IMG/VR virus record: IMGVR_UViG_3300023245_000095
Location: 1 to 26,505 of that record
DNA from: a virus
Strand: one strand, 5' to 3'
Length of the DNA: 26,505 bases
Shown: positions 2,018-26,505 of the stretch, one piece after another
Numbering within the stretch: the stretch's first letter is position 1
Layout of the letters: every line of letters starts with the position of its first letter
Notes under the pieces: generated by a model
What the model saw: only the letters and a program-made list of their open reading frames with translations
Databases searched by the model: none
What the model was told of the DNA's origin: nothing
Translations under genes and position numbers: made by a program

Positions 2018-3127
2018 ATGAGCAGCGGTATCAAGAATACGCAACTGCTTGACCTCCTGGCGACCACGCTCCCCGACCTCCCCGACAACGAGTTCGAGGT
2101 GGCCTGGGAGTACCGCGATTACGAAGTTTGTAATCGCTGGTTCCAGCAGGACAAGATCGACGTGGACGGCGGTGTTACCATCGACCGTCGAATCATGCTC
2201 GACCACTCAGGCGCAGCACAGTATGTGCGTCTGTACCAGCCTTCGACGCCCAACGTGGCGGACGTGCAAAAGCGCATCTCCGTCCCCTGGTGTCAACTCG
2301 AAGTGAACTGGAGCGTCGAGCGACGTGAACTCCTCCGAAACCGATCCTCCGCGAAGGGCTTTATCAAGCTCATCATGTCGCGCCGGGTCGATGCGATGTC
2401 GGCCCTGGCCGATCTCCTGGAGGAGAAGGCTTGGGATGTGCCGGCCAACGCCAACGACGACCTCCTGCCCTACGGCTTGCCGTACTGGCTGGTGCTCGCC
2501 AACGATGGCGTTGATACCGATGGTGCCTTCAACGGTCAAACCGTTCGCTACGGCGACGGCACGACCGGCACCACGCGGGCCGGGCTCGACTCCGCGACCT
2601 TTGATAAGTGGCGGAACTGGACGGCCCAATACACCTCGGTCAACCGGACCCTGATGAAGCGTATGCGTAAGGCGTTCCGCGCCGTTCGCTTCCGCTCGCC
2701 TGTCACGGTGAAGGACATGTCCGAAGGGCCTTCGAGCAACTTCCGCATCTACATGGACCTCGACACCATCGTTGAGTTCGAGGAGGTCGCTCACAATCAG
2801 AACGACAACCTCGGCGGCGAGGTGGCGGCGTTCGGTGGATCGACCACGTTCCGCCGGATCCCCCTGGTTGACATCCCCCAACTCGACACCTTCACGGTGA
2901 CGGATGGCGGATCCAGCACCTTCAGCCCGGATCCGATCTACATGGTCAACCACTCGAAGTTCTATCCCATCGTCCAGGAAGATGACTGGCTCGTTGAGTC
3001 CGATCCTGAGACCGACCGTACCCTCCACAACGTCTTTACGTCGTTCGTGGATGGGTCTCACCAGTTCATGTCCACGAACCTCCGCACCGCCGGTGCGGCG
3101 ATTCACAAGGTCATCCCCGCCGCTTAA
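2018..3127 (+). CDS. Major capsid protein (369 aa)
   Basis: This is the probable shell protein of the virion. Length, position after a scaffold-like gene, and features such as the PNVADVQKRISVPW segment and conserved central and C-terminal beta-rich stretches (PVDIPQLDTF-like, PIYMVNHSKFYPI) fit capsid proteins of environmental podoviruses with an HK97-type fold. The fold assignment is inference; no single diagnostic motif exists. There is no obvious N-terminal delta domain, which agrees with a separately encoded scaffold. A good AGGAG ribosome binding site precedes the ATG, and a short hairpin may overlap it. A UUCG-capped hairpin follows the gene at 3158-3169. An encapsulin or other HK97-fold protein is an unlikely alternative given the neighbours. 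Confidence 0.82.
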   Translation: MSSGIKNTQLLDLLATTLPDLPDNEFEVAWEYRDYEVCNRWFQQDKIDVDGGVTIDRRIMLDHSGAAQYVRLYQPSTPNVADVQKRISVPWCQLEVNWSVERRELLRNRSSAKGFIKLIMSRRVDAMSALADLLEEKAWDVPANANDDLLPYGLPYWLVLANDGVDTDGAFNGQTVRYGDGTTGTTRAGLDSATFDKWRNWTAQYTSVNRTLMKRMRKAFRAVRFRSPVTVKDMSEGPSSNFRIYMDLDTIVEFEEVAHNQNDNLGGEVAAFGGSTTFRRIPLVDIPQLDTFTVTDGGSSTFSPDPIYMVNHSKFYPIVQEDDWLVESDPETDRTLHNVFTSFVDGSHQFMSTNLRTAGAAIHKVIPAA

Positions 3128-5391: not shown

Positions 5392-7977
5392 ATGCGAAAG
5401 CCGATGCCACTTCAGTTCCCGGTGTCGGGTGTCGTTGAGAACGCACCCTACTCCCAGCAGCCACCGGGCACGACGCCGGACGCGCTTAACGTGCGCTCGT
5501 TTGACTCCCTGGAGAGACGGAATCGCGGGGGCCAGCGGATCGGAATGTCAAAGCTGGCTGCGAGCCCTATCAGCGCCGGCAATCAGATCCAGCTTCTTGA
5601 GCAGATCGTTAGAGCCCTTGACCTGGTTCAGTCCGCGGCGTGGAGCGACAAGCTGGTCAACCCAGCCTCCGCCTTGTCCGCGGCGTTTAATCACTACGCC
5701 CGCTGGGATCCGAATGGCGCTTACCTGGTCCAATCTACACCTTCCAGCGGGATCCGAGTCTACCCCTTCGATGGGGTCTCCTTTGGCACCGGGGTTACGC
5801 TGGCTCACTCAACGATCGTTTCCGCGATCGGATCGGGCGACGTCAACGATATCGCGGTTTCCAACGACGGGGCTTATTTAATCATTGGCAGCGACGCGGG
5901 GATTGGGTACTGCACGATCAGCCCCACTGCGTTCGGGGCGATCACCGAGTTCGGATCCTTGACCGACGTGTTTGGCGTCCGCTTCACGCCCGACAGCAAC
6001 GCGCTGGTTTACCTCGACCAGACCGGAACCGGGTTCCATGCCATAGCCTGGACAGGGACGGCTCTGGGTTCGGCCTACTCCGATCCTGGAGTCTCCGCAA
6101 TCGGGACCGGCGGCAACTCACTGGAGATGTCTCCGACCGGCGAGTTCGTGGTCGGCATGGACAGCACGAACCTCTATATGATGGGATTCACCAGCCTCGG
6201 AGGTTTCACCACCGACATTGATTCGGTGCCGGATAGTTTGAGTGGACTTCCAAACCGGATGGCAATTAACCCGGCCGGCAGCTTCATCGCTTGGGGGTGT
6301 GGAGGATCCTCCTCTTTCCGCTATGCGCCGATCAACGTCTTGACTGGCTTTGGCGCTAGCACGTCTGAGGCCGCTGGGATTGGAGACGTGCTAGATGTGA
6401 AGTTCGACCCAAGCGGAAACTACCTGGGGGTCGCCGGAGAGACCACGCCCCATGCGAAGATCTATCAGTTTGGCGGCGGGCTCGGGGCGGCGTTGACGGC
6501 CCCCGGAACGCCGCCGGCCGCGGATGTCCAAGTCTTTGCCTGGAGTAGTGACAGCCTCAACATTGCCACCGCGACAGACTCGGGTTTAGAAGCATGGGCT
6601 TTCCTGCCAGCCGCGATCAACCCCACCGCCCGCGAGACCCGCTTGGTGGCGGTGTCCGGCGGCAATATGTACCAGTCAAGCGTAAGCCTGGCTACCTTCG
6701 CGCTGGTCTCAGGCGGATCCTCGGCGTTCGATGAGACCAATCCCGCCCTCATGGCTGATACCGCATTCCAAAAGCTGTTCGTTGCAGATGGGATTTCCGC
6801 CAACTACCAATACCTGGACTTTGCGGACACCACGCTGAAGGATTGGGCGGGCGACATCACGGACGGATCGCTGCCCCAAGGGACGACCGACACCACCTTG
6901 GGATGCCGGTTCCTCGCGGTGTACCGCGGCCGCGTCGTGCTCAGCGGGCTTAAGGAAGAACCTCAAAACTGGTTCATGTCCAGGGCCGGAGATCCGTTCG
7001 ACTTCGACTACTCCCCAACCGTGCCCGACGCGACTCAGGCCGTCGCCGGCAACAACTCCGAGGCCGGCGAGCTTGGCGACATCGTGACAGCGCTCGCCCC
7101 CTATCAGGACGACCTCATGGTCATGGGCGGGGCGAACTCGGTGTGGGTCATGCGTGGCGACCCTGCCGCCGGCGGTCAGATCGACAACATCGTCCGCGGC
7201 ATTGGCATTGTCGGCCCCCACGCCTGGTGCTTTGACGACGTGGGCAACTTCTACTTCTTCGCGGTCAACGGCCTGTACCGGATTTCCGCCGGCCTGGGTA
7301 CTCAGCCGGAACTCATTTCCAAGAACAAGCTCGACACAACCTTCGCTGACCTGGACGTGTCTGCTCAGTACATCCGCATGGAGTATGATCCGATTTGGCA
7401 GGGGGTTCACATCTTCAACGTGAGCGAAGCCGAGCCGTCGAGCAACGCCCTCGCGCCGATGCACTACTTCTGGGACTCCCGTAACAACGGCTTCTGGCCC
7501 GACCAGTACCCGGCCTCGATCGGCCCAACGGCGACCCTCTACTTCAACGACGACAACCCCGAGCGATCGGGCGTTGTTCTTGGCGGATGGGATAGCTACC
7601 TCCGGCAGTTCGATGACGGGGCTGCCGACGACGACGGCACCGCGATCACCAGCCGGGTGCAGTTCGCGGCCGAGAACCCCGGCTTGGCGATGGCCGACTC
7701 AAAGCTGAGCGAGATCCACATCAACCTGGACCGGCAATCAGACGACCTTACCTTGAACGTCTACTCCGGGCAGACCGTCGAGGACGCGGTGCGGGACGCC
7801 AACCTTCGATTCGCTCGGACCCTGGTGGCCGGCAAGAACAACGCGATCCGCCAACGAGCCCGAGGAGCGGCGATCGTCTTCGAGGTCACTCAGTCAGCCA
7901 CCGCTTCGACCTGGGCCTACGAGAACGGCTTGGCCATCTTCGAGACTCAAGGGAAGACCCGAAGAAGGAGGCAGTAA
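5392..7977 (+). CDS. Tail nozzle/stabilisation protein with inserted beta-propeller (861 aa)
   Basis: The N-terminus has the opening typical of podovirus nozzle (tail tubular B / P22 gp10-like) proteins: PVSGVVENAPYSQQPPGTTP, then ALNVRSFDSLERRNRGGQR. Residues ~425-860 again fit this family, with ADGISANYQYLDF, LGCRFLAVYRGRVVLSG, EPQNWFMSR, and the segment LMVMGGANSVWVMRGDP followed by IVRGIGIVGPHAW. Between them, residues ~100-415 hold seven repeats about 45 residues apart, each with a (F/D/S)xP(S/N)G-type turn followed by a beta strand: ARWDPNGAYL (~100), IAVSNDGAYL (~153), VRFTPDSNAL (~196), LEMSPTGEFV (~244), MAINPAGSFI (~290), VKFDPSGNYL (~336) and FAWSSDSLNI (~382). This indicates a WD40/YVTN-like seven-bladed propeller. 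The start may be ATG 5392 or 5404; neither has a clear SD. The stop overlaps the next ATG as TAATG. Confidence 0.78.
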   Translation: MRKPMPLQFPVSGVVENAPYSQQPPGTTPDALNVRSFDSLERRNRGGQRIGMSKLAASPISAGNQIQLLEQIVRALDLVQSAAWSDKLVNPASALSAAFNHYARWDPNGAYLVQSTPSSGIRVYPFDGVSFGTGVTLAHSTIVSAIGSGDVNDIAVSNDGAYLIIGSDAGIGYCTISPTAFGAITEFGSLTDVFGVRFTPDSNALVYLDQTGTGFHAIAWTGTALGSAYSDPGVSAIGTGGNSLEMSPTGEFVVGMDSTNLYMMGFTSLGGFTTDIDSVPDSLSGLPNRMAINPAGSFIAWGCGGSSSFRYAPINVLTGFGASTSEAAGIGDVLDVKFDPSGNYLGVAGETTPHAKIYQFGGGLGAALTAPGTPPAADVQVFAWSSDSLNIATATDSGLEAWAFLPAAINPTARETRLVAVSGGNMYQSSVSLATFALVSGGSSAFDETNPALMADTAFQKLFVADGISANYQYLDFADTTLKDWAGDITDGSLPQGTTDTTLGCRFLAVYRGRVVLSGLKEEPQNWFMSRAGDPFDFDYSPTVPDATQAVAGNNSEAGELGDIVTALAPYQDDLMVMGGANSVWVMRGDPAAGGQIDNIVRGIGIVGPHAWCFDDVGNFYFFAVNGLYRISAGLGTQPELISKNKLDTTFADLDVSAQYIRMEYDPIWQGVHIFNVSEAEPSSNALAPMHYFWDSRNNGFWPDQYPASIGPTATLYFNDDNPERSGVVLGGWDSYLRQFDDGAADDDGTAITSRVQFAAENPGLAMADSKLSEIHINLDRQSDDLTLNVYSGQTVEDAVRDANLRFARTLVAGKNNAIRQRARGAAIVFEVTQSATASTWAYENGLAIFETQGKTRRRRQ

Positions 7978-10424: not shown

Positions 10425-11231
10425 ATGCCAGCCCCTCGCCCCGTCTCCGTTTCCTACATGGACCCCGGCTCTGTCGGAATGCTTGCCCTTCGCTCTGGCG
10501 AGGGGATGCTGCGGGACCGGCTCAGCAGTGAGGCGAGCAGCATCATCGACTCCACGCGACGCTACCAGCTTGGGCAACAGGAGATCCAGTCCAGGGAGCG
10601 GATGTTCGCGATCGAGCAGGCGTACAACAGCCGGGCCGGCAGTGTGGCTCCTCAACAGAACATCCAGCCGGCCTCGACCCGACAGCAGCAGCTAGACGAT
10701 ACGCTCCGGCAGATGGTCGGCCAGGGGACGGTCAACCCCGATCAAGCAAGCTGGCTCCGGCTGAGCGCCTTGGGCGTGAACCAAGCCCCGATCAACCAGG
10801 CGCTCGGGGTTGCGACCGGCGGACAGTCCAGTGGCCTCACCCCCTACCAGCAGAGCCAGATGCAATACCGCCAACAAGGGGACGCCCAGGACAACCAGGC
10901 AAGAGCCCTCCAGCAGCAGATCGAGCAGGCCGAGCAGCAGGTCAAGATGTACGAGGACTCGATCCCTGGTGGCGTCGCCGGCATGAGCGGGGAGGAGCGC
11001 CAGCAGTACGACCAACTGACCGAACTGCTCAACCAGCGGCAGACGAGCTTGTCCGGCATGTACCAGCAATTCAGTCAGGCTCCGGCCGGCGGCGCTGGCG
11101 GGCAGATGGGTCAGGCTCCGGCCGGCGGCTCGATGACCTTCGAGCAGGCTCAACAGCAGGGCTACGTCTTCCAGGACGCCAACGGCCAGATCATTTACTG
11201 GAACGGATCCTCCTACGCACCTAAACCATGA
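10425..11231 (+). CDS. Gln-rich internal virion (ejection-type) protein (268 aa)
   Basis: The ATG at 10425 has AAGGA 9 nt upstream. The protein is helical and very rich in Gln, with coiled-coil potential at residues ~145-205 (QARALQQQIEQAEQQVKMYE, then ERQQYDQLTELLNQRQTSLS). Two copies of QAPAGG near residues 217-235 come from an exact 20-bp DNA repeat. The C-terminus has GYVFQDANGQIIYWNG. The stop overlaps the start of the giant downstream gene as ATGA, so the two are probably co-translated. The partner arrangement (two Gln-rich proteins, then a very large one) recalls the three ejection proteins of T7- and P22-like phages, although sequence similarity is not evident. Confidence 0.6.
   Translation: MPAPRPVSVSYMDPGSVGMLALRSGEGMLRDRLSSEASSIIDSTRRYQLGQQEIQSRERMFAIEQAYNSRAGSVAPQQNIQPASTRQQQLDDTLRQMVGQGTVNPDQASWLRLSALGVNQAPINQALGVATGGQSSGLTPYQQSQMQYRQQGDAQDNQARALQQQIEQAEQQVKMYEDSIPGGVAGMSGEERQQYDQLTELLNQRQTSLSGMYQQFSQAPAGGAGGQMGQAPAGGSMTFEQAQQQGYVFQDANGQIIYWNGSSYAPKP
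11074..11129 (+). repeat. 20-bp direct repeat encoding QAPAGG
   Basis: The sequence GTCAGGCTCCGGCCGGCGGC occurs at 11074-11093 and again, identically, at 11110-11129, 36 bp apart and in the same reading frame. It encodes two copies of QAPAGG in a disordered part of the protein. A recent in-frame duplication is likely. Confidence 0.85.
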
Positions 11232-14200
11232 CAGCTTTCAACCAGAACCCAACGCTGCGGCCAACCGCTTCACCACCCCCGCCGCCGCCTGGCTTCTTCC
11301 CGATGGGACAGCCAGGCGGTTCTCCTATGGGCTCGCCTCCGCCACCGCCAGCGGGGTTCTTCCCCGCGGCGGATGTGCCCGAGGGCGAGTATTCATTCCT
11401 GGCCCGGCGGGTACACCCGAGCGCTTACATTCCCGAGGGGATGGAAGATAACGTGCCGTCCCTACGCAACACCGGGGTTACTCCAGGTAACGCGGGCATC
11501 TGGGCGGCACTCCACGTCGGTCAAGAGAACCAGAGGCGGCAGGCCGAGGGCAAGCACAACCTCGACCCCGACACTCAACTCGCGATCCAGGACATCTACA
11601 AGCGGATGGCCGGCCGTGGTGACGTTTCGAGCCAGAACTTCTACGAGCAGACCCGGCAGCGCCAGGCCGACGATCGAGGCAACACTTTGGGCGGTCGTGT
11701 TCAGGATGCGTCGGGAGCCTTCACCGGCAACCTCGCGAACACCGGGCTCGACATCCTCGGGCTCGCAGCCCCGCAGACGGCCAACCGGCTCAGCCAGGCC
11801 ACCGACGAGCAGTACCGAACGGGCCAGGCTTACGACAATGCGATCAACCCCGTCAACGCCGGCAACCTCGCGGCCGAGGCTGTGAAGATGGCGACGGTGG
11901 CTCGCGCTGGGCCTGGTGGCATGGCGGCGTTCTACGGCACGCAAGGTGCTGGCGGTCAGCGCCGCGAGGTGGCCACGCTCCGCGACCAGGGCAACGACAT
12001 CTCCGGGCTCAACGAAGCGCTCACCACGTTCGGCGTCGGCGCGACCGAAGCGATCTCGGGCTACATCGGTGGCCGGATCTTCCGCAGCATGGGCGGCGTG
12101 CTGAAGGGTGCAGCGCCCGAGTTCCGGGCCGCGCTCGCCAGCGGGTTCCGGCCGGCCGTGACCGAGGCGATCCGGCAGACGGCGATGGTCTCTGGCCACG
12201 CGCTCGCAGAGGGCACCGAGGAGGCCGTCACTCAGGCCGTCACGAACCTCATCCGCCAGGGGGTTAATCCCGAGCAGGCGATCGCCGAAGGGCTCGCCGA
12301 GTCGTTCACGATGGGCGTGCTCCTGTCGCCCTTCGGTGCAGGCAACATCGACGCCGGCCGTGGTCGCGAGGGCGTGGATCCTGCGGGTGCCGCCCAGGGC
12401 ACCGCGCCGGCCGGCGCTGGGGCGATGCAGGCCCAGCCCGCCCAGCTTGCCGAGGAGTTCCAGAACCGGATCCAGCGACGGCTCGCTGAAGCCCAGGGGC
12501 CGGACGACGTGGGGCAAGCCGCGGTGACAGAGCTTCAGCCGGACGTGAACACCGATCCGACCCGCCGGCTGGACCCCCAGCCCGACGCGGAGGCGGTTTA
12601 CGACCTCACGCCGGGGGGTCAGGAGCCGGCTCCTCCGAGCTTCCTCCAGCAGACGGGTCAAGCCCCGGATATCGCCGGAGGCCCGCTCACAGCCCCGCCC
12701 AGCGTTGCCGGTGAGCCTTCAGCGGTCAATCCGCTCGCCCAGGCTGGCCAGGATTCCGTCCAAGGGGTCCAGCCGAACATTGCAGGCCCTCAAGCTGGAA
12801 GCCCGCAGACGGGCTCTCCGGGCGTTGCTGGGCAAGGGCAGGTGCCCCTCCCGCAGAGCGCCAGCCGGGATGAGATCGCGGCGCTGGTGGCGTCGTCGGA
12901 CCCGGACGTGGTTTCCGGCGGGCTCCCGGCCGACATCGTGACCCAGGGGTTCGCTGGCGAGATGGCCAACCTGAAGAACGGGGACCAGGACTTCGAGCTT
13001 GTCGATGTGCCGGTCTCCCTGGTCCGCCAGCAGAGCGACTACCAGCCCGAGCAGGTCGCCGCCTACGCCCAGCAGCCGGCCGAGTCCGCGCCGCCCGGTG
13101 TCGGGGGCTTCACGAAGTTCGGCGACTTCGCGCTGGTGGACGGCAACACCCGAGCCCGCGCTGCGGCCCAGCGTGGCGACGCGACGGTGCGGGCCTACGT
13201 CCCCAAGTCCGACGCCGAGCAGATCCGCAAGCGGTTCGCCGACCAGCAGCGAGCCCAGCGGGCCGAGGAGTCGGTCGAGCAGTTATACGACGAGGCCCGC
13301 ACCGACCCGCTGACCGACCTCGGCAACAAGCGGCGGTTCGATGAGGCGGTCCAGGATGCTCAGTCGATGGCCGACGAGTCGGGCGAGCCCTTCTCGATGA
13401 TCGTGATGGACGCGGCCAACCTGAAGGCAGCGAACACGGCCTTCGGGCACCAGGGAGCCGACGAGAAGCTGCGAGCGATGGCCCAGGCGATCGCGGAAGT
13501 CACTCGCCAGGGCAACGACGGCCGGCCGGTGGACATGATCTCCACCCGGCAGGGCGGCGACGAGTTCGCGGTGATCCTGCCTGGAGCCAACCAGGCCGAG
13601 GCCGAGATGGTCCTGAAGCGGATCCAAGAGGTCGCCGGCCGCGAGGAGATCGTGCCCGGCGTCTCGATGTTCTTGGCCGGCGGCACCAGTGAGTACGCCC
13701 CCGGATCCGGCGATGTGAAATCGGTGATTAAAGCGGCCGACGACTCGGCCGAGCAGCGAAAGGAACAGTCCAAGCGCGACGCCGGCGAGGTGACAAGCCG
13801 GCAGGACGCCGAGCGTCTTGTCCAGGAGGGCGTGATGAAGGGGATCTTCAAGCAGGAAGTCAAGCCTGAAGACACGCCCACGCTCCCGCAGCCCAAGGCA
13901 CCTTCAGCCAAGAAGACCCCGACTACGAAGGCCGACAGGGACGACGCGAAGATCAAGGCCAAGTTCGCCGACACCGAAAGCCAACAGTTGTTCGCCGAGG
14001 AAGCAGAGGACCAAGCCGACGACGAGCCGATCACGGATCCCAACGAGGATCCCAACCTCCCCGACGACCTGCTCGATCAGGTCGCCAAGATGGGTTGGGA
14101 GCCCGACGCGACCCGCACGCGGCTCGAAGCGAAGATGGGCAACAGCCCCGAGGTCCGGCGGTCGATGATGCGTCTGCCTGGACCCGAACTCCTCAAGCTG

Positions 14201-17200
14201 GCCCAGGCCGTGCTCGGCTCGACGCCTGGCGTGAAGCGGATGATCGGCCGGCCGCGCGTACTGGGATGGTTCAAGCCCGACATCAACGGCGTCGGCGAGA
14301 TGAACATCAACCCGACGATCGGCCGCAACGAGGTCTTGCTTGCCAAGGTGCTCGCCCACGAACTCGGCCACGTCATCGACCATGTGCCGGACTCGGGGAT
14401 CGAGTCGCGGCCGAACATTATCTCGCGGCTCCGCGGCATGAGGGACGACATCAAGGAGGCCCTGGGCCACCCGGTCGGCGACGTGAAGAAGGAGCTGATC
14501 GCTTTGACCACGGCATGGAGCGGCCCGATCGCTCCAGGCAACTCGAAGCACAGCGTCTATCGACGGTCAGACGCGGAGATCTATGCCGAGTTCCTGTCGG
14601 TCTTCTTGTCGGATCCGGCGATGGCTCAACGCAAGGCCCCCAAGGCGTTCGAGATCTTCATGGCCCACGTCAACAACAAGCCCGACTTCGCGGATAACTA
14701 CATCGCGATCCAGGACATGCTCGACGGCCAGAGCGAGGAGGCGATCGCGGCTCGTCAGGCGGACATCCGTGGCGACTTCAAGAAGGGCAACGAGCGGATG
14801 CAGATCGCGGCCGAGGCTAATCGAGCCCGAGCACAAGACCCCTGGGAGAACTTCCTTCAAGCCACCCTCGACTCGGCCACGCCCCTGATGAAGCTGGAGA
14901 AGGACGACACCGGATCCTGGAGGGGATCGCACATCGACATGGCCAGCGATGAATACGCGATGGTGGACCAGGAAACTCAGATCATGGTCGATGACGTGCG
15001 GGCGGCGCTCAAGCCGGCCCTCAACGCGGGGATCGACACCGGGGTCATGGGCGAGTGGCTAATGATGAACCGCATCGCCTACGGCGACCGCTCCCGGATG
15101 AAGGATCTGGACAAGGCCATCAAGCTCGGCCTGGACCCCAAGGATCTCAACAACCGCGACCAGGCGTACATCAACCCGCGAGGCTATGGCCCTACGTCCG
15201 CCAAGCAGAACCTTGACGCGATCGAGAAGACGCTGGGCAAGGAGAAGGCGGACATCCTGAAGAAGTCGATGGAGACTTTCCTGGATATGCCGTACCAGAT
15301 GGCGGAGAAACTGCACCGTGAGGGTGCGATGACCGATGGCATGTTCGAGATCATCGAGGCGAACCGTGGCAACTATGTCACGTTCGCGGTGCTCGACTAC
15401 CTGGACGCTTCGATCCCGGCCGCGATCCGCAAGCAGATCGGCACCTTCAAGCCGATCGCGAACCCCTTGGTCGCGACCACGATGAAGATGATGAGTCAGG
15501 CCCGGCTCTACGAGACCCAGCGCTACAAGAACGCCGTCGTCCAGCGGCTCAGCGGGAGCAAGGAGATCACTCGGCTGCGAGTCGCCCCTGGAGGCAACCC
15601 CAAGGCTCCCCCGCCGTTCATGGACAACTTCATGCACCTGGTCAACGGCCGGCCGGTCTGGTTCCAGGCCCATGAGCGGTTCGTTCGATCGCTCAAGCGG
15701 AAGAACATCGGCGACCTGTCGTTTATGAATCAGCTTGCATCGAAGTACACCTACGGGATCTTCCACAAGGTCTTCGTACAGTTGAACATGTCGTGGATGA
15801 TCGCCAACCTCCCGCGCGACTTCATGCGGACCTACAAGAACCTGAAGGGTATCGACCGCTCGATCACCTTCGCGGAACTGCTCAAGGCGTACACCTCGTC
15901 GGTCAAGCCTGCCTACCTGAAGGAGAAGGGGATCTTCACCGATGAGGTGCGGGCGCTGGTCGAGAGCCGCGGGCTCGCGGCCGTGCAGATGGGCGAGCTT
16001 CAGAAGGCCCGCGAGAGCGGCGAGTATGAGCAACTGCTGATCGAGGAGTTCGGCGACATCCAGAAGGCGCGCAAGGGCCTCCTCGGCCGCATCGCGGGGC
16101 TCCAGGATGTCCTTATCACCCTGGGCAACACTACCGAGTCGATGTCGAAGATCGCCGGCGAGAAGGTGCTGATGGGGCGGATCTCCGACAGCAAGGCGCG
16201 AGCCCACATCATCCGCAACAAGGTCGGCACGCCGAACATCTACCGCAAGGGCACCGTGACCAGTTTGACCAATACGCTGTTCATGTACTCCAAGGTCGCG
16301 ATCGCCGGCTACCGGGCCGACTTCGATTCGGCCTTCAGCAAGAAGTCCGCCGGCGGCTGGTGGGAGGGTCACATGCGATTCATCGGGATCCCGCGGATCC
16401 TCATGTGGATGGCGGCTAACGGCTTCTTGGGGGAACTCCTGGAGGAGTGGTTCGACAAGATCCCGGACTACGACAAGGTAAACTACCTGATCGTGCCAAT
16501 GGGAGAGAGCACGGACGGCAAGGTTCGCTACATGCGGATCCCGATGGACCACACCGACCTGCTGGTGAGCGGGACGATGTGGCGGATGATGGACACGATG
16601 AAGCAGGACCAGGACGACAGCTTCGAGAAGGACATGAAGGACATGGCTCACTTCTTCAAGAGCCAGATCCCCGGCTTCTCGCCGCCGATCGAGATGGCCA
16701 ATGCCTGGACGCAGTACGCGACCGGGGCGAACCCCTACGACTCATGGCAGCGCCGGCCGATCATGTCGCCCGACGAGCACCGTGCCGGCGGCAAGTACGC
16801 CTTCAACTCGATGGTGCAGTGGACGGCCGACCAGTTCGGCATCGCGAGCCAGGTGCTCGACGTGATCCCCCACTTCAACGAGAGCCAGGGGAGCCAGGCT
16901 CCTCGGGTGGTCAACTACTTCCCCGGCATGTCCAGGTTCATCCGCGAATCCGACCGCGGCCTGGATCAAGAGCGGTGGTCTCGGGAGGAGGTCGAGGAGA
17001 TGGAGTCGGCCCGGTTCCGTATGGGCCTGCCGGATGGGGTGCGGGACATCCTCCAGGCCCGCAACCGCCTGGTGCGGTTTAGCGGCGGTCGGGAGAAGTC
17101 CGAACTGAGCCGGGAGGAGATCCGCACCAAAGCGATCTATGATGACTTCTACGGGGACTACCTCAGCCTCACCGACGCGATCAAGGTGTCGGAATCCAGG

Positions 17201-17296
17201 GGTGAACAAGAACGTGCCGATCGGCTGAGGCAGCGCCTCGGCGAGATGGCTACCAGTATTCAGGAAAGGGTTGAAGCCCTTGGAGCGCCAGAATGA
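11228..17296 (+). CDS. Giant polyvalent ejection protein: ParB-like, GGDEF, zinc peptidase, LPD-type C-terminus (2022 aa)
   Basis: The start overlaps the previous stop as ATGA. Residues ~17-46 are Pro-rich with two PPPPP(P)xGFFP repeats. Residues ~160-390 are Ala/Gly-rich and helical with an EGTEEA motif at 328-333, common in large phage internal proteins. Residues ~585-665 resemble a ParB-like nuclease fold (VPVSLVRQQ, then DGNTRARAAAQRG). Residues ~690-850 are a GGDEF domain with PLTDLGNKRRF at 694-704, D728 (VMDAANLKAAN), FGHQGADEKL and intact GGDEF at 776-780. Residues ~1000-1170 hold a zinc peptidase with HELGH at 1044-1048 and a likely third ligand in AEIYAEF (E1117 or E1121). The C-terminal half (SWMIANLPRDFMRTYKNLKG at ~1520) resembles large polyvalent protein-associated domains, LPD38 type. 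Such proteins are thought to be delivered with the genome and to act early against the host. Delivery here is inferred from position. Confidence 0.85.
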   Translation: MTAFNQNPTLRPTASPPPPPPGFFPMGQPGGSPMGSPPPPPAGFFPAADVPEGEYSFLARRVHPSAYIPEGMEDNVPSLRNTGVTPGNAGIWAALHVGQENQRRQAEGKHNLDPDTQLAIQDIYKRMAGRGDVSSQNFYEQTRQRQADDRGNTLGGRVQDASGAFTGNLANTGLDILGLAAPQTANRLSQATDEQYRTGQAYDNAINPVNAGNLAAEAVKMATVARAGPGGMAAFYGTQGAGGQRREVATLRDQGNDISGLNEALTTFGVGATEAISGYIGGRIFRSMGGVLKGAAPEFRAALASGFRPAVTEAIRQTAMVSGHALAEGTEEAVTQAVTNLIRQGVNPEQAIAEGLAESFTMGVLLSPFGAGNIDAGRGREGVDPAGAAQGTAPAGAGAMQAQPAQLAEEFQNRIQRRLAEAQGPDDVGQAAVTELQPDVNTDPTRRLDPQPDAEAVYDLTPGGQEPAPPSFLQQTGQAPDIAGGPLTAPPSVAGEPSAVNPLAQAGQDSVQGVQPNIAGPQAGSPQTGSPGVAGQGQVPLPQSASRDEIAALVASSDPDVVSGGLPADIVTQGFAGEMANLKNGDQDFELVDVPVSLVRQQSDYQPEQVAAYAQQPAESAPPGVGGFTKFGDFALVDGNTRARAAAQRGDATVRAYVPKSDAEQIRKRFADQQRAQRAEESVEQLYDEARTDPLTDLGNKRRFDEAVQDAQSMADESGEPFSMIVMDAANLKAANTAFGHQGADEKLRAMAQAIAEVTRQGNDGRPVDMISTRQGGDEFAVILPGANQAEAEMVLKRIQEVAGREEIVPGVSMFLAGGTSEYAPGSGDVKSVIKAADDSAEQRKEQSKRDAGEVTSRQDAERLVQEGVMKGIFKQEVKPEDTPTLPQPKAPSAKKTPTTKADRDDAKIKAKFADTESQQLFAEEAEDQADDEPITDPNEDPNLPDDLLDQVAKMGWEPDATRTRLEAKMGNSPEVRRSMMRLPGPELLKLAQAVLGSTPGVKRMIGRPRVLGWFKPDINGVGEMNINPTIGRNEVLLAKVLAHELGHVIDHVPDSGIESRPNIISRLRGMRDDIKEALGHPVGDVKKELIALTTAWSGPIAPGNSKHSVYRRSDAEIYAEFLSVFLSDPAMAQRKAPKAFEIFMAHVNNKPDFADNYIAIQDMLDGQSEEAIAARQADIRGDFKKGNERMQIAAEANRARAQDPWENFLQATLDSATPLMKLEKDDTGSWRGSHIDMASDEYAMVDQETQIMVDDVRAALKPALNAGIDTGVMGEWLMMNRIAYGDRSRMKDLDKAIKLGLDPKDLNNRDQAYINPRGYGPTSAKQNLDAIEKTLGKEKADILKKSMETFLDMPYQMAEKLHREGAMTDGMFEIIEANRGNYVTFAVLDYLDASIPAAIRKQIGTFKPIANPLVATTMKMMSQARLYETQRYKNAVVQRLSGSKEITRLRVAPGGNPKAPPPFMDNFMHLVNGRPVWFQAHERFVRSLKRKNIGDLSFMNQLASKYTYGIFHKVFVQLNMSWMIANLPRDFMRTYKNLKGIDRSITFAELLKAYTSSVKPAYLKEKGIFTDEVRALVESRGLAAVQMGELQKARESGEYEQLLIEEFGDIQKARKGLLGRIAGLQDVLITLGNTTESMSKIAGEKVLMGRISDSKARAHIIRNKVGTPNIYRKGTVTSLTNTLFMYSKVAIAGYRADFDSAFSKKSAGGWWEGHMRFIGIPRILMWMAANGFLGELLEEWFDKIPDYDKVNYLIVPMGESTDGKVRYMRIPMDHTDLLVSGTMWRMMDTMKQDQDDSFEKDMKDMAHFFKSQIPGFSPPIEMANAWTQYATGANPYDSWQRRPIMSPDEHRAGGKYAFNSMVQWTADQFGIASQVLDVIPHFNESQGSQAPRVVNYFPGMSRFIRESDRGLDQERWSREEVEEMESARFRMGLPDGVRDILQARNRLVRFSGGREKSELSREEIRTKAIYDDFYGDYLSLTDAIKVSESRGEQERADRLRQRLGEMATSIQERVEALGAPE

Positions 17297-25242: not shown

Positions 25243-25873
25243 GCCGATCGGTGGAGTAGATCCTGGATTCGAGGGCGGCATCGGCGTCATCAACGGCGAC
25301 AGCGGATCTCTGGAGGTTCTATACGACATGCCCCAGCGAAACCAGGCCAAGGGGCGTCGAAGGGAAGTAGATGTAGATGCTCTGAATTGGATCTTCCGGG
25401 ATCTTCACCAGCGGGGAGTGGCGGACGTGCATCTTGAATGGCCGACCACACGCCCCGAGGAGAGCGCCGAAAGTTCCAAGCGATTCGGCGTGGGCCTCGG
25501 CAATATAGAAGCCCTGGTGATCGCCAACGGCATGAAGCTCGCGCGTGTAGCGCCCAACAAGTGGAAGCAGGATCTCGGGCTTCCTGGAAAGAAGGACGGA
25601 CTTACAACCGCGACTGAAGCTCGGCGTCTCGCCTGCGAGCAGGCGCTTCGCTTGATCCCCGGCATAGAGCGGGACCATCTTTACGGCCCCCGAGGCGGTG
25701 CGAAGGACGGACGGGCCGAGGCGCTGCTGATTGCCTGGTGGTCGTGGTCGAGGTCGATTCATGCGATGCGTGTCCTGGCTGACCGATGGGGGAAGGATTC
25801 GGTGCAGGCTCAGGCTTTCATGCTGATGGGTGGCCGGCGGAGCCGCAAGGTCAGACCTGGACCGCTCATCTAA
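25235..25873 (+). CDS. RuvC-like Holliday junction resolvase (212 aa)
   Basis: The RNase H-fold RuvC pattern is visible: D9 in GGVDPGFEGGIGVIN, E68 in VHLEWP, and D158 and E162 in AKDGRAEALLIAWW. The segment GNIEALVIANGMKLARVAPN followed by KWKQDLG is typical of phage RuvC-like resolvases. The product would cut branched DNA made during recombination or before packaging. The start overlaps the primase-helicase stop by 8 nt, and the 3' end overlaps the convergent methyltransferase-like gene by 8 nt. The C-terminus is basic (GGRRSRKVRPG), suited to DNA contact. Confidence 0.82.
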   Translation: MLEPIGGVDPGFEGGIGVINGDSGSLEVLYDMPQRNQAKGRRREVDVDALNWIFRDLHQRGVADVHLEWPTTRPEESAESSKRFGVGLGNIEALVIANGMKLARVAPNKWKQDLGLPGKKDGLTTATEARRLACEQALRLIPGIERDHLYGPRGGAKDGRAEALLIAWWSWSRSIHAMRVLADRWGKDSVQAQAFMLMGGRRSRKVRPGPLI

Positions 25874-26505
25874 CTCGCGGGAGCTTGGCTGGACGACGGG
25901 CGGGCTTCCGTGCCGATCCGCCCCACTGATCGGCCATCGCATCGGCAATGCCCTTGAATGTTGTGCTGGCTATTCTCGCTCGCCGATCTTTGTTGGTTCC
26001 GCTCTGTCGGTGGCTCCAGGCGGACATCCGATCCCCGTTTGATTTTATGTAAAACTTGCCTCGCCCCACGATCTTAGTTGGGGTTAGTGGGGGCAACCCG
26101 CTCAACCAGAGGCATGTCGGCTTGTGGGCCTCATCGCCGAACTGCCAAGGGTTAATGACCTGATCCGGCTTCCTCCATCGCGTGGACATTATTCCTACGG
26201 GATTTTCAATCGCAGTTCTTTTGATTTTGGCCTGGGCTAATTGCATGAAGAACTCCTCAGCGATAGCAGTCAAGGCCCACCGCTCCGGCCTTCTTGCGTT
26301 CCACGCGACCCCTGGATTGCAGAGGTAAGTGCAAGGCGGATGGGCGACCATTAGATCCCAGCCATCCCCCAAGATGTCGCGAACATCCCCTTGGTAGTGC
26401 GGTCCAGGTGATTCGGTGGGCAGGAGGTCGCACGACATAGCATCGTGCCCCCGCTTGATAAAAGCGTCACGAACGCGACCGCTGTACTCACAGGCAACCA
26501 GAACC
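25866..26505 (-). CDS. C5-cytosine methyltransferase-like protein, partial (N-terminus beyond window)
   Basis: The minus-strand frame runs open to the window edge. The residues before the first internal Met at 26438 read VLVACEYSGRVRDAFIKRGH, a conserved N-terminal part with the SAM-binding-type loop, so the real start lies outside. A catalytic-type HPPC motif occurs in DLMVAHPPCTYL, and ENPVG is a likely motif VI. The rest (DEAHKPTCLWLSGLPPL) belongs to the compact phage family usually called DNA cytosine methyltransferase-like. The protein is short and lacks a clear target-recognition domain, so activity is uncertain. It may protect phage DNA from host restriction. It converges on the resolvase gene with an 8-nt overlap. 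Confidence 0.8.
   Translation of the reverse strand, partial: VLVACEYSGRVRDAFIKRGHDAMSCDLLPTESPGPHYQGDVRDILGDGWDLMVAHPPCTYLCNPGVAWNARRPERWALTAIAEEFFMQLAQAKIKRTAIENPVGIMSTRWRKPDQVINPWQFGDEAHKPTCLWLSGLPPLTPTKIVGRGKFYIKSNGDRMSAWSHRQSGTNKDRRARIASTTFKGIADAMADQWGGSARKPARRPAKLPRVR

Follow-up and report, generated by a model that had tools for sequence, protein, structure and literature searches.

The window analysed here, a virus record of 26505 bases from IMG/VR, contains a single open frame for a giant protein of 2022 residues (P0001; Table 1), within which lies a GGDEF domain with the fold and the intact active site of a diguanylate cyclase. Six other viral contigs with the same order of tail genes encode a giant (1440–2855 residues) in the corresponding location, each including a related GGDEF domain. 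Judging from the sequences, the new element is the retention of this domain in giants of related uncultivated podovirus-like genomes, while the remaining protein has been replaced. We consider it somewhat probable that the giant belongs to the large ejection (internal virion) proteins of short-tailed phages of the T7/N4 type and is equipped with a diguanylate cyclase that raises host c-di-GMP early in infection. If so, c-di-GMP, the main bacterial lifestyle switch, would be used by phages as an injected weapon, and these would be among the very few virions carrying an enzyme for the synthesis of a host second messenger.

Table 1. Features of the giant protein and of two virion genes in the window
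Feature	Position	Strand	Evidence or remark
Major capsid protein	2018..3127	+	PHROG major head protein, E 9e-5
Tail-nozzle (TubB)-like gene, clade marker	5392..7977	+	Weak PHROG tail match, E 6e-4
Giant polyvalent/ejection-type protein, 2022 aa (P0001)	11228..17296	+	Open frame; LPD38; post-tail-gene position common to relatives
N-terminal module, residues 79–384, also in L209 giant	11462..12379	+	37% identity, E 1e-47
ParB-like segment, residues 589–666, motif level only	12992..13225	+	34% identity to G003 giant, E 9e-8
Helix 660–690 preceding GGDEF, like stalk helix of WspR, DgcB, PleD	13205..13297	+	Model H3-33; PDB alignments span helix
GGDEF (diguanylate cyclase) domain, residues 691–849	13298..13774	+	Pfam, PDB sequence matches, AF2 WspR/PleD-type fold
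D728, equivalent of PleD metal ligand D327; invariant in 7 giants	13409..13411	+	
D745, at PleD D344 (recognises guanine); together with N736 favours GTP substrate	13460..13462	+	
GGDEF signature, residues 776–780	13553..13567	+	
K845 (PleD K442 equivalent) and K849 (at PleD R446; K in place of R in 7/7 giants)	13760..13774	+	
C-terminal chassis, residues 986–1970; GGDEF-less relatives in 14 viral contigs and Pelagibacter phage Baldr	14183..17137	+	
HELGH zincin-type peptidase motif, residues 1044–1048	14357..14371	+	H, E, G invariant in chassis alignment
LPD38 domain, residues 1739–1869	16442..16834	+	Pfam 29.3 bits, cut-off 27

A GGDEF domain with an intact active site

Residues 691–849 match the Pfam GGDEF family (PF00990) at 79 bits (E 4.4e-22; cut-off 23.8) and TIGR00254 at 75 bits (cut-off 37.4). 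A search of PDB sequences with the domain returned GcbC and WspR (E 3e-16 to 4e-15), with DgcB and PleD also matched. The AlphaFold2 model of residues 658–870, based on 69 aligned sequences, has a mean pLDDT of 95.4 and a pTM of 0.88; its best PDB folds are diguanylate cyclases, including WspR, SiaD, DgcB and PleD (Z about 20–23), and WspR chain 3i5b_B aligns with a Z of 22.7 and an rmsd of 1.8 over 156 residues. The first-pass annotation of this DNA had claimed an intact GGDEF domain from the motifs PLTDLGNKRRF (694–704), D728, FGHQGAD (739–745) and GGDEF (776–780), all of which are present in the one frame of 2022 codons, and had named structure prediction and comparison with diguanylate cyclases as checks; both checks bear the claim out. 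The domain resembles WspR, PleD, SiaD and DgcB in its fold, its catalytic residues and its preceding helix, but differs from them in the absence of a receiver or sensor domain, in a lysine in place of R446, and in an RxxD motif that is not at the canonical spacing.

Residue roles were assigned from PleD, where we take them to be established. D728, K733, N736, D745 and K845 correspond to D327, K332, N335, D344 and K442 of PleD, D778 and E779 to the acidic pair of its GGEEF motif, and K849 lies at the R446 position; the residues contacting metal, guanine and phosphate are therefore present, with K849 replacing the arginine. Of the PleD-type catalytic or substrate positions, ten were examined and each holds a usable residue in the window domain, counting the lysine for R446; the equivalents of D327, K332, N335, D344, GGDE and K442, together with this lysine, are identical in all seven giants. 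Invariance at these ten positions compares with 22 of 185 columns overall (p 6e-11), and holds for six of six when the GGDE positions used in the search pattern are left out (p 4e-7); the p values serve as a guide only, since columns are treated as independent and the sequences are related. Because the asparagine and aspartate that recognise guanine (N736 and D745) are kept, GTP is the predicted substrate and the enzyme is not predicted to be of the Hypr (cGAMP) type, the hallmark of which is replacement of PleD D344; this position is an aspartate in each of the seven giants.

An RxxD inhibition site at the canonical spacing was not found in any of the seven giants, the motif being displaced by one residue in the window, L209, L210 and L211, and missing at that place in the other three. 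Such a site is common, but not required, in active diguanylate cyclases. The displaced or missing RxxD and the lysine for R446 are departures from textbook cyclases that would suit a domain which binds GTP or c-di-GMP non-enzymatically, serving the ejection machine as a structural element or sensor. We consider this distinctly unlikely, since the other catalytic positions are invariant in domains that share 26–56% identity in the multiple alignment, and these include metal ligands which binding would not need. The preferred reading, a catalytically active domain, lends itself to testing without a cultured phage, because it concerns a small domain that is modelled with confidence and for which the catalytic mutants are clear.

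A constant domain between exchangeable flanks

A search with the tail-nozzle-like protein, which is independent of the GGDEF domain, gave seven loci. Besides the window, two of these reach the giant gene (L200, on the L103 contig, and L199, on G003), and both giants have the domain; the count made independently of GGDEF is thus three of three (window, L103 and G003), so that the frequency of the domain in the clade rests on three contigs. At the remaining loci the contigs end too early, that of L197 stopping just before the expected giant gene. A second search, with a profile of four phage GGDEF domains, returned L209, L210, L211 and L212, which have the same tail-gene order and a giant of 1440–1711 residues, each with a GGDEF domain. 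As these four giants were found through the domain, its presence in them is no evidence of frequency, but the search does not account for the unrelated flanks of these giants or for those catalytic residues that lie outside its patterns. Single-sequence scans of the viral contig collection (viral_contigs) with the whole protein or the domain gave no relative, and alignments were needed for detection.

Pairwise comparison of the seven giants detects similarity in 20 of 21 pairs for the GGDEF domain, 5 of 21 for the N-terminal part and 3 of 21 for the C-terminal part. The chassis common to L209, L211 and L212 shows no BLAST relationship to the window chassis. When placed in a tree alongside 66 further GGDEF domains, those of the seven giants form one clade (support 97/90; bootstrap not fully settled) together with two related stand-alone viral GGDEF proteins, L104 and L215. 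An NLK motif considered as a phage-only signature was rejected, as bacterial GGDEF domains also have it. Ejection proteins are known to be mosaic and fast-varying (PMC8954989), and a constant enzyme with exchangeable flanks would illustrate how they evolve.

The C-terminal part of the window giant has a separate set of relatives. A search with its alignment identified the same chassis of about 1000 residues in 14 viral contigs, all but one with an HExxH-type motif, and Pelagibacter phage Baldr has a giant of 2329 residues, encoded between the tail tubular B and tail fibre genes, with a C-terminal part 24% identical to that of the window giant. A GGDEF domain was found in none of these 15 chassis relatives; their N-terminal halves contain methylase and SNF2 helicase, RadC, ddrB-type ParB or phosphoribosyltransferase domains. 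Given these differing N-terminal domains, the chassis represents a known polyvalent backbone whose cargo can be exchanged; in the window giant this cargo is the GGDEF domain. In the L010 and L011 giants, which have this chassis, the methylase is of Eco57I type and accompanies the SNF2 helicase module.

The first-pass annotation had also described the giant as a putative ejected polyvalent protein and had singled out its combination of ParB-like and peptidase modules with the GGDEF domain. The polyvalent assignment is upheld by the length of the protein, an LPD38 domain above the Pfam cut-off and a location between tail-type and later genes, and the peptidase module by the HELGH motif. The ParB-like segment has a conserved DGNTR...QRG motif, found in one homologue only, the G003 giant; it gave no Pfam match and no PDB match, and its model (pLDDT 49) is too poor for a fold search. 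A match over this part, L044, was discarded as a Cache-domain sensor protein. The peptidase and ParB-like motifs occur, among the seven giants, in the window and G003 only, the other five keeping the GGDEF domain without either, which argues against this combination as the key to the system; the ParB-like segment is outside the conserved core of the giants.

Gene context and a possible ejected cyclase

The gene order of the window comprises a scaffold-like gene, the major capsid protein (PHROG), tail-type genes, two further proteins, the giant, and, 3′ of it, replication genes encoding a primase and an exonuclease. A near-identical contig, L202 (99.4–100% over the common proteins), reaches further upstream, where portal- and terminase-like genes are present. 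Within the virion cluster, the giant gene follows the tail nozzle genes, the nozzle assignment itself being weak: the tail-type assignment rests on a weak PHROG tail match, profile searches against the PDB found no solved relatives of the window tail-type proteins, and a profile comparison of these with the tubular proteins of Baldr was not significant. Across the aligned part, the tail-nozzle-like protein is 48–58% identical in the relatives. The place of the giant among virion genes supports a fit to a T7-type ejection protein, since proteins of that type are encoded where the Baldr giant lies, between tail tubular B and tail fibre genes. Like T7 gp16 and N4 vRNAP, the giant is the largest protein of its virion gene cluster, and its layout (N-terminal module, GGDEF enzyme, C-terminal chassis) would parallel that of N4 vRNAP, in which an RNA polymerase lies between N-terminal and C-terminal domains. 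It is unlike both in that its enzyme is a predicted diguanylate cyclase, and in the absence of a sequence match to solved ejection proteins; a profile search of the PDB with the chassis gave no solved relatives, ejection proteins included.

Giant enzymes that are ejected, with their copy numbers, have been described before (PMC12633501, PMC8954989); four copies of T7 gp16 are seen in the virion, and a hexameric ring reaching the cytoplasm is thought to form (PMC8954989). We infer that the giant is likewise packaged and ejected, and that its GGDEF domains dimerise and are catalytically active. Four to six copies would be packaged per virion and probably pushed into the cell before the phage DNA, traversing the tail ahead of it and assembling at the inner membrane. 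There, by analogy with T7 gp16, several GGDEF domains would be brought together into pairs able to convert GTP to c-di-GMP, preceding the transcription of any phage gene. The likely purpose would be to shift the host early into a high-c-di-GMP state, in which motility is low and the surface and cell cycle are altered, and the keeping of the domain while the rest of the giant was swapped suggests that host signalling is reset at infection. More broadly, the purpose may concern motility, surface, cell cycle, superinfection or counter-defence. More tentatively, a podovirus lineage may deliver, as a fixed core part of its ejection apparatus kept by selection, a functional diguanylate cyclase that raises host c-di-GMP within seconds and before phage transcription.

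By our own estimate, two or three pairs at usual turnover would yield tens to hundreds of nM c-di-GMP in the opening minutes of infection, an amount between borderline and relevant, and four to six copies could give little. This small copy number counts against the ejected cyclase, as do the weak tail-gene assignment, the lack of canonical RxxD spacing and the recovery of four of the seven giants by a GGDEF query. Newly made giant could add more c-di-GMP late in infection, and it might be that the cyclase acts late altogether, from newly made protein prior to packaging and not from the small number of ejected copies. The giant gene is in the structural (late) cluster and would thus be expressed in many copies, and the stand-alone relatives L104 and L215, which are ordinary phage genes, together with the GGDEF gene of Yuavirus MP1412, indicate that the function does not depend on ejection. 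We nonetheless think late action rather unlikely, since it gives no account of why the domain has stayed fused to the giant through several chassis swaps.

Relation to known GGDEF proteins of phages

GGDEF domains in polyvalent proteins were described by Iyer et al. (2017) as not very widespread, with an example from Acetonema longum (WP_004096050.1), and were proposed to act in cyclic-nucleotide signalling or in interference with host nucleotide responses (PMC5512222); the kind of protein seen here is thus already known. As in those proteins, GGDEF is fused in the window giant to further modules, among them a zincin peptidase. However, the example of Iyer et al. is a prophage protein in which GGDEF is one of at least nine domains, whereas in the window group GGDEF is the constant part, the chassis changes, and five of the seven giants are without the peptidase motif. 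Stand-alone GGDEF proteins of Yuavirus MP1412, Bordetella CN2, SP-15 and phage G are phage-encoded too, but by small separate genes outside an ejection protein. In Pseudomonas phage MP1412 (L207) this small gene adjoins a KlcA antirestriction gene.

The KlcA neighbour, the antirestriction-type cargo that related giants carry in the same part of the protein, and the proposal of Iyer et al. of interference with host nucleotide responses (PMC5512222) would all accord with a role in counter-defence, in which nucleotide sensors of host immunity are occupied or disturbed by the cyclic dinucleotide. We give this a slim chance, as the conserved N736 and D745 predict ordinary c-di-GMP, the common messenger of the host, as the product, and no defence link was seen in this analysis. 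No isolate phage with a GGDEF giant was found in the phage collection (at tblastn sensitivity and with a subset of the unannotated records opened); the GGDEF matches L003, L005–L007 and L008 in that collection were rejected because they proved to be sensor or regulator proteins of bacterial type, from unannotated records, or host-like genes such as DgcM.

Some minor observations concern single proteins. The GGDEF domain of the L212 giant (residues 563–660) gives a weak match to the Cas10/Cmr2 palm model as well (E 0.0018), which is unsurprising given the relatedness of the folds, and the BFVD match A0A516M277 is a giant-protein fragment with 21% identity. The tail-nozzle-like protein of the window contains an insertion of about 340 residues (approximately residues 73–413) with weak WD40/propeller similarity, which is absent from the 531-residue L103 homologue. 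At the end of the window, an open gene on the minus strand (25866–26504; LVACEYSGRVRDAFIKRGHDAMSCDL...) is truncated by the contig end and, by eye only, looks like phage DNA-modification genes.
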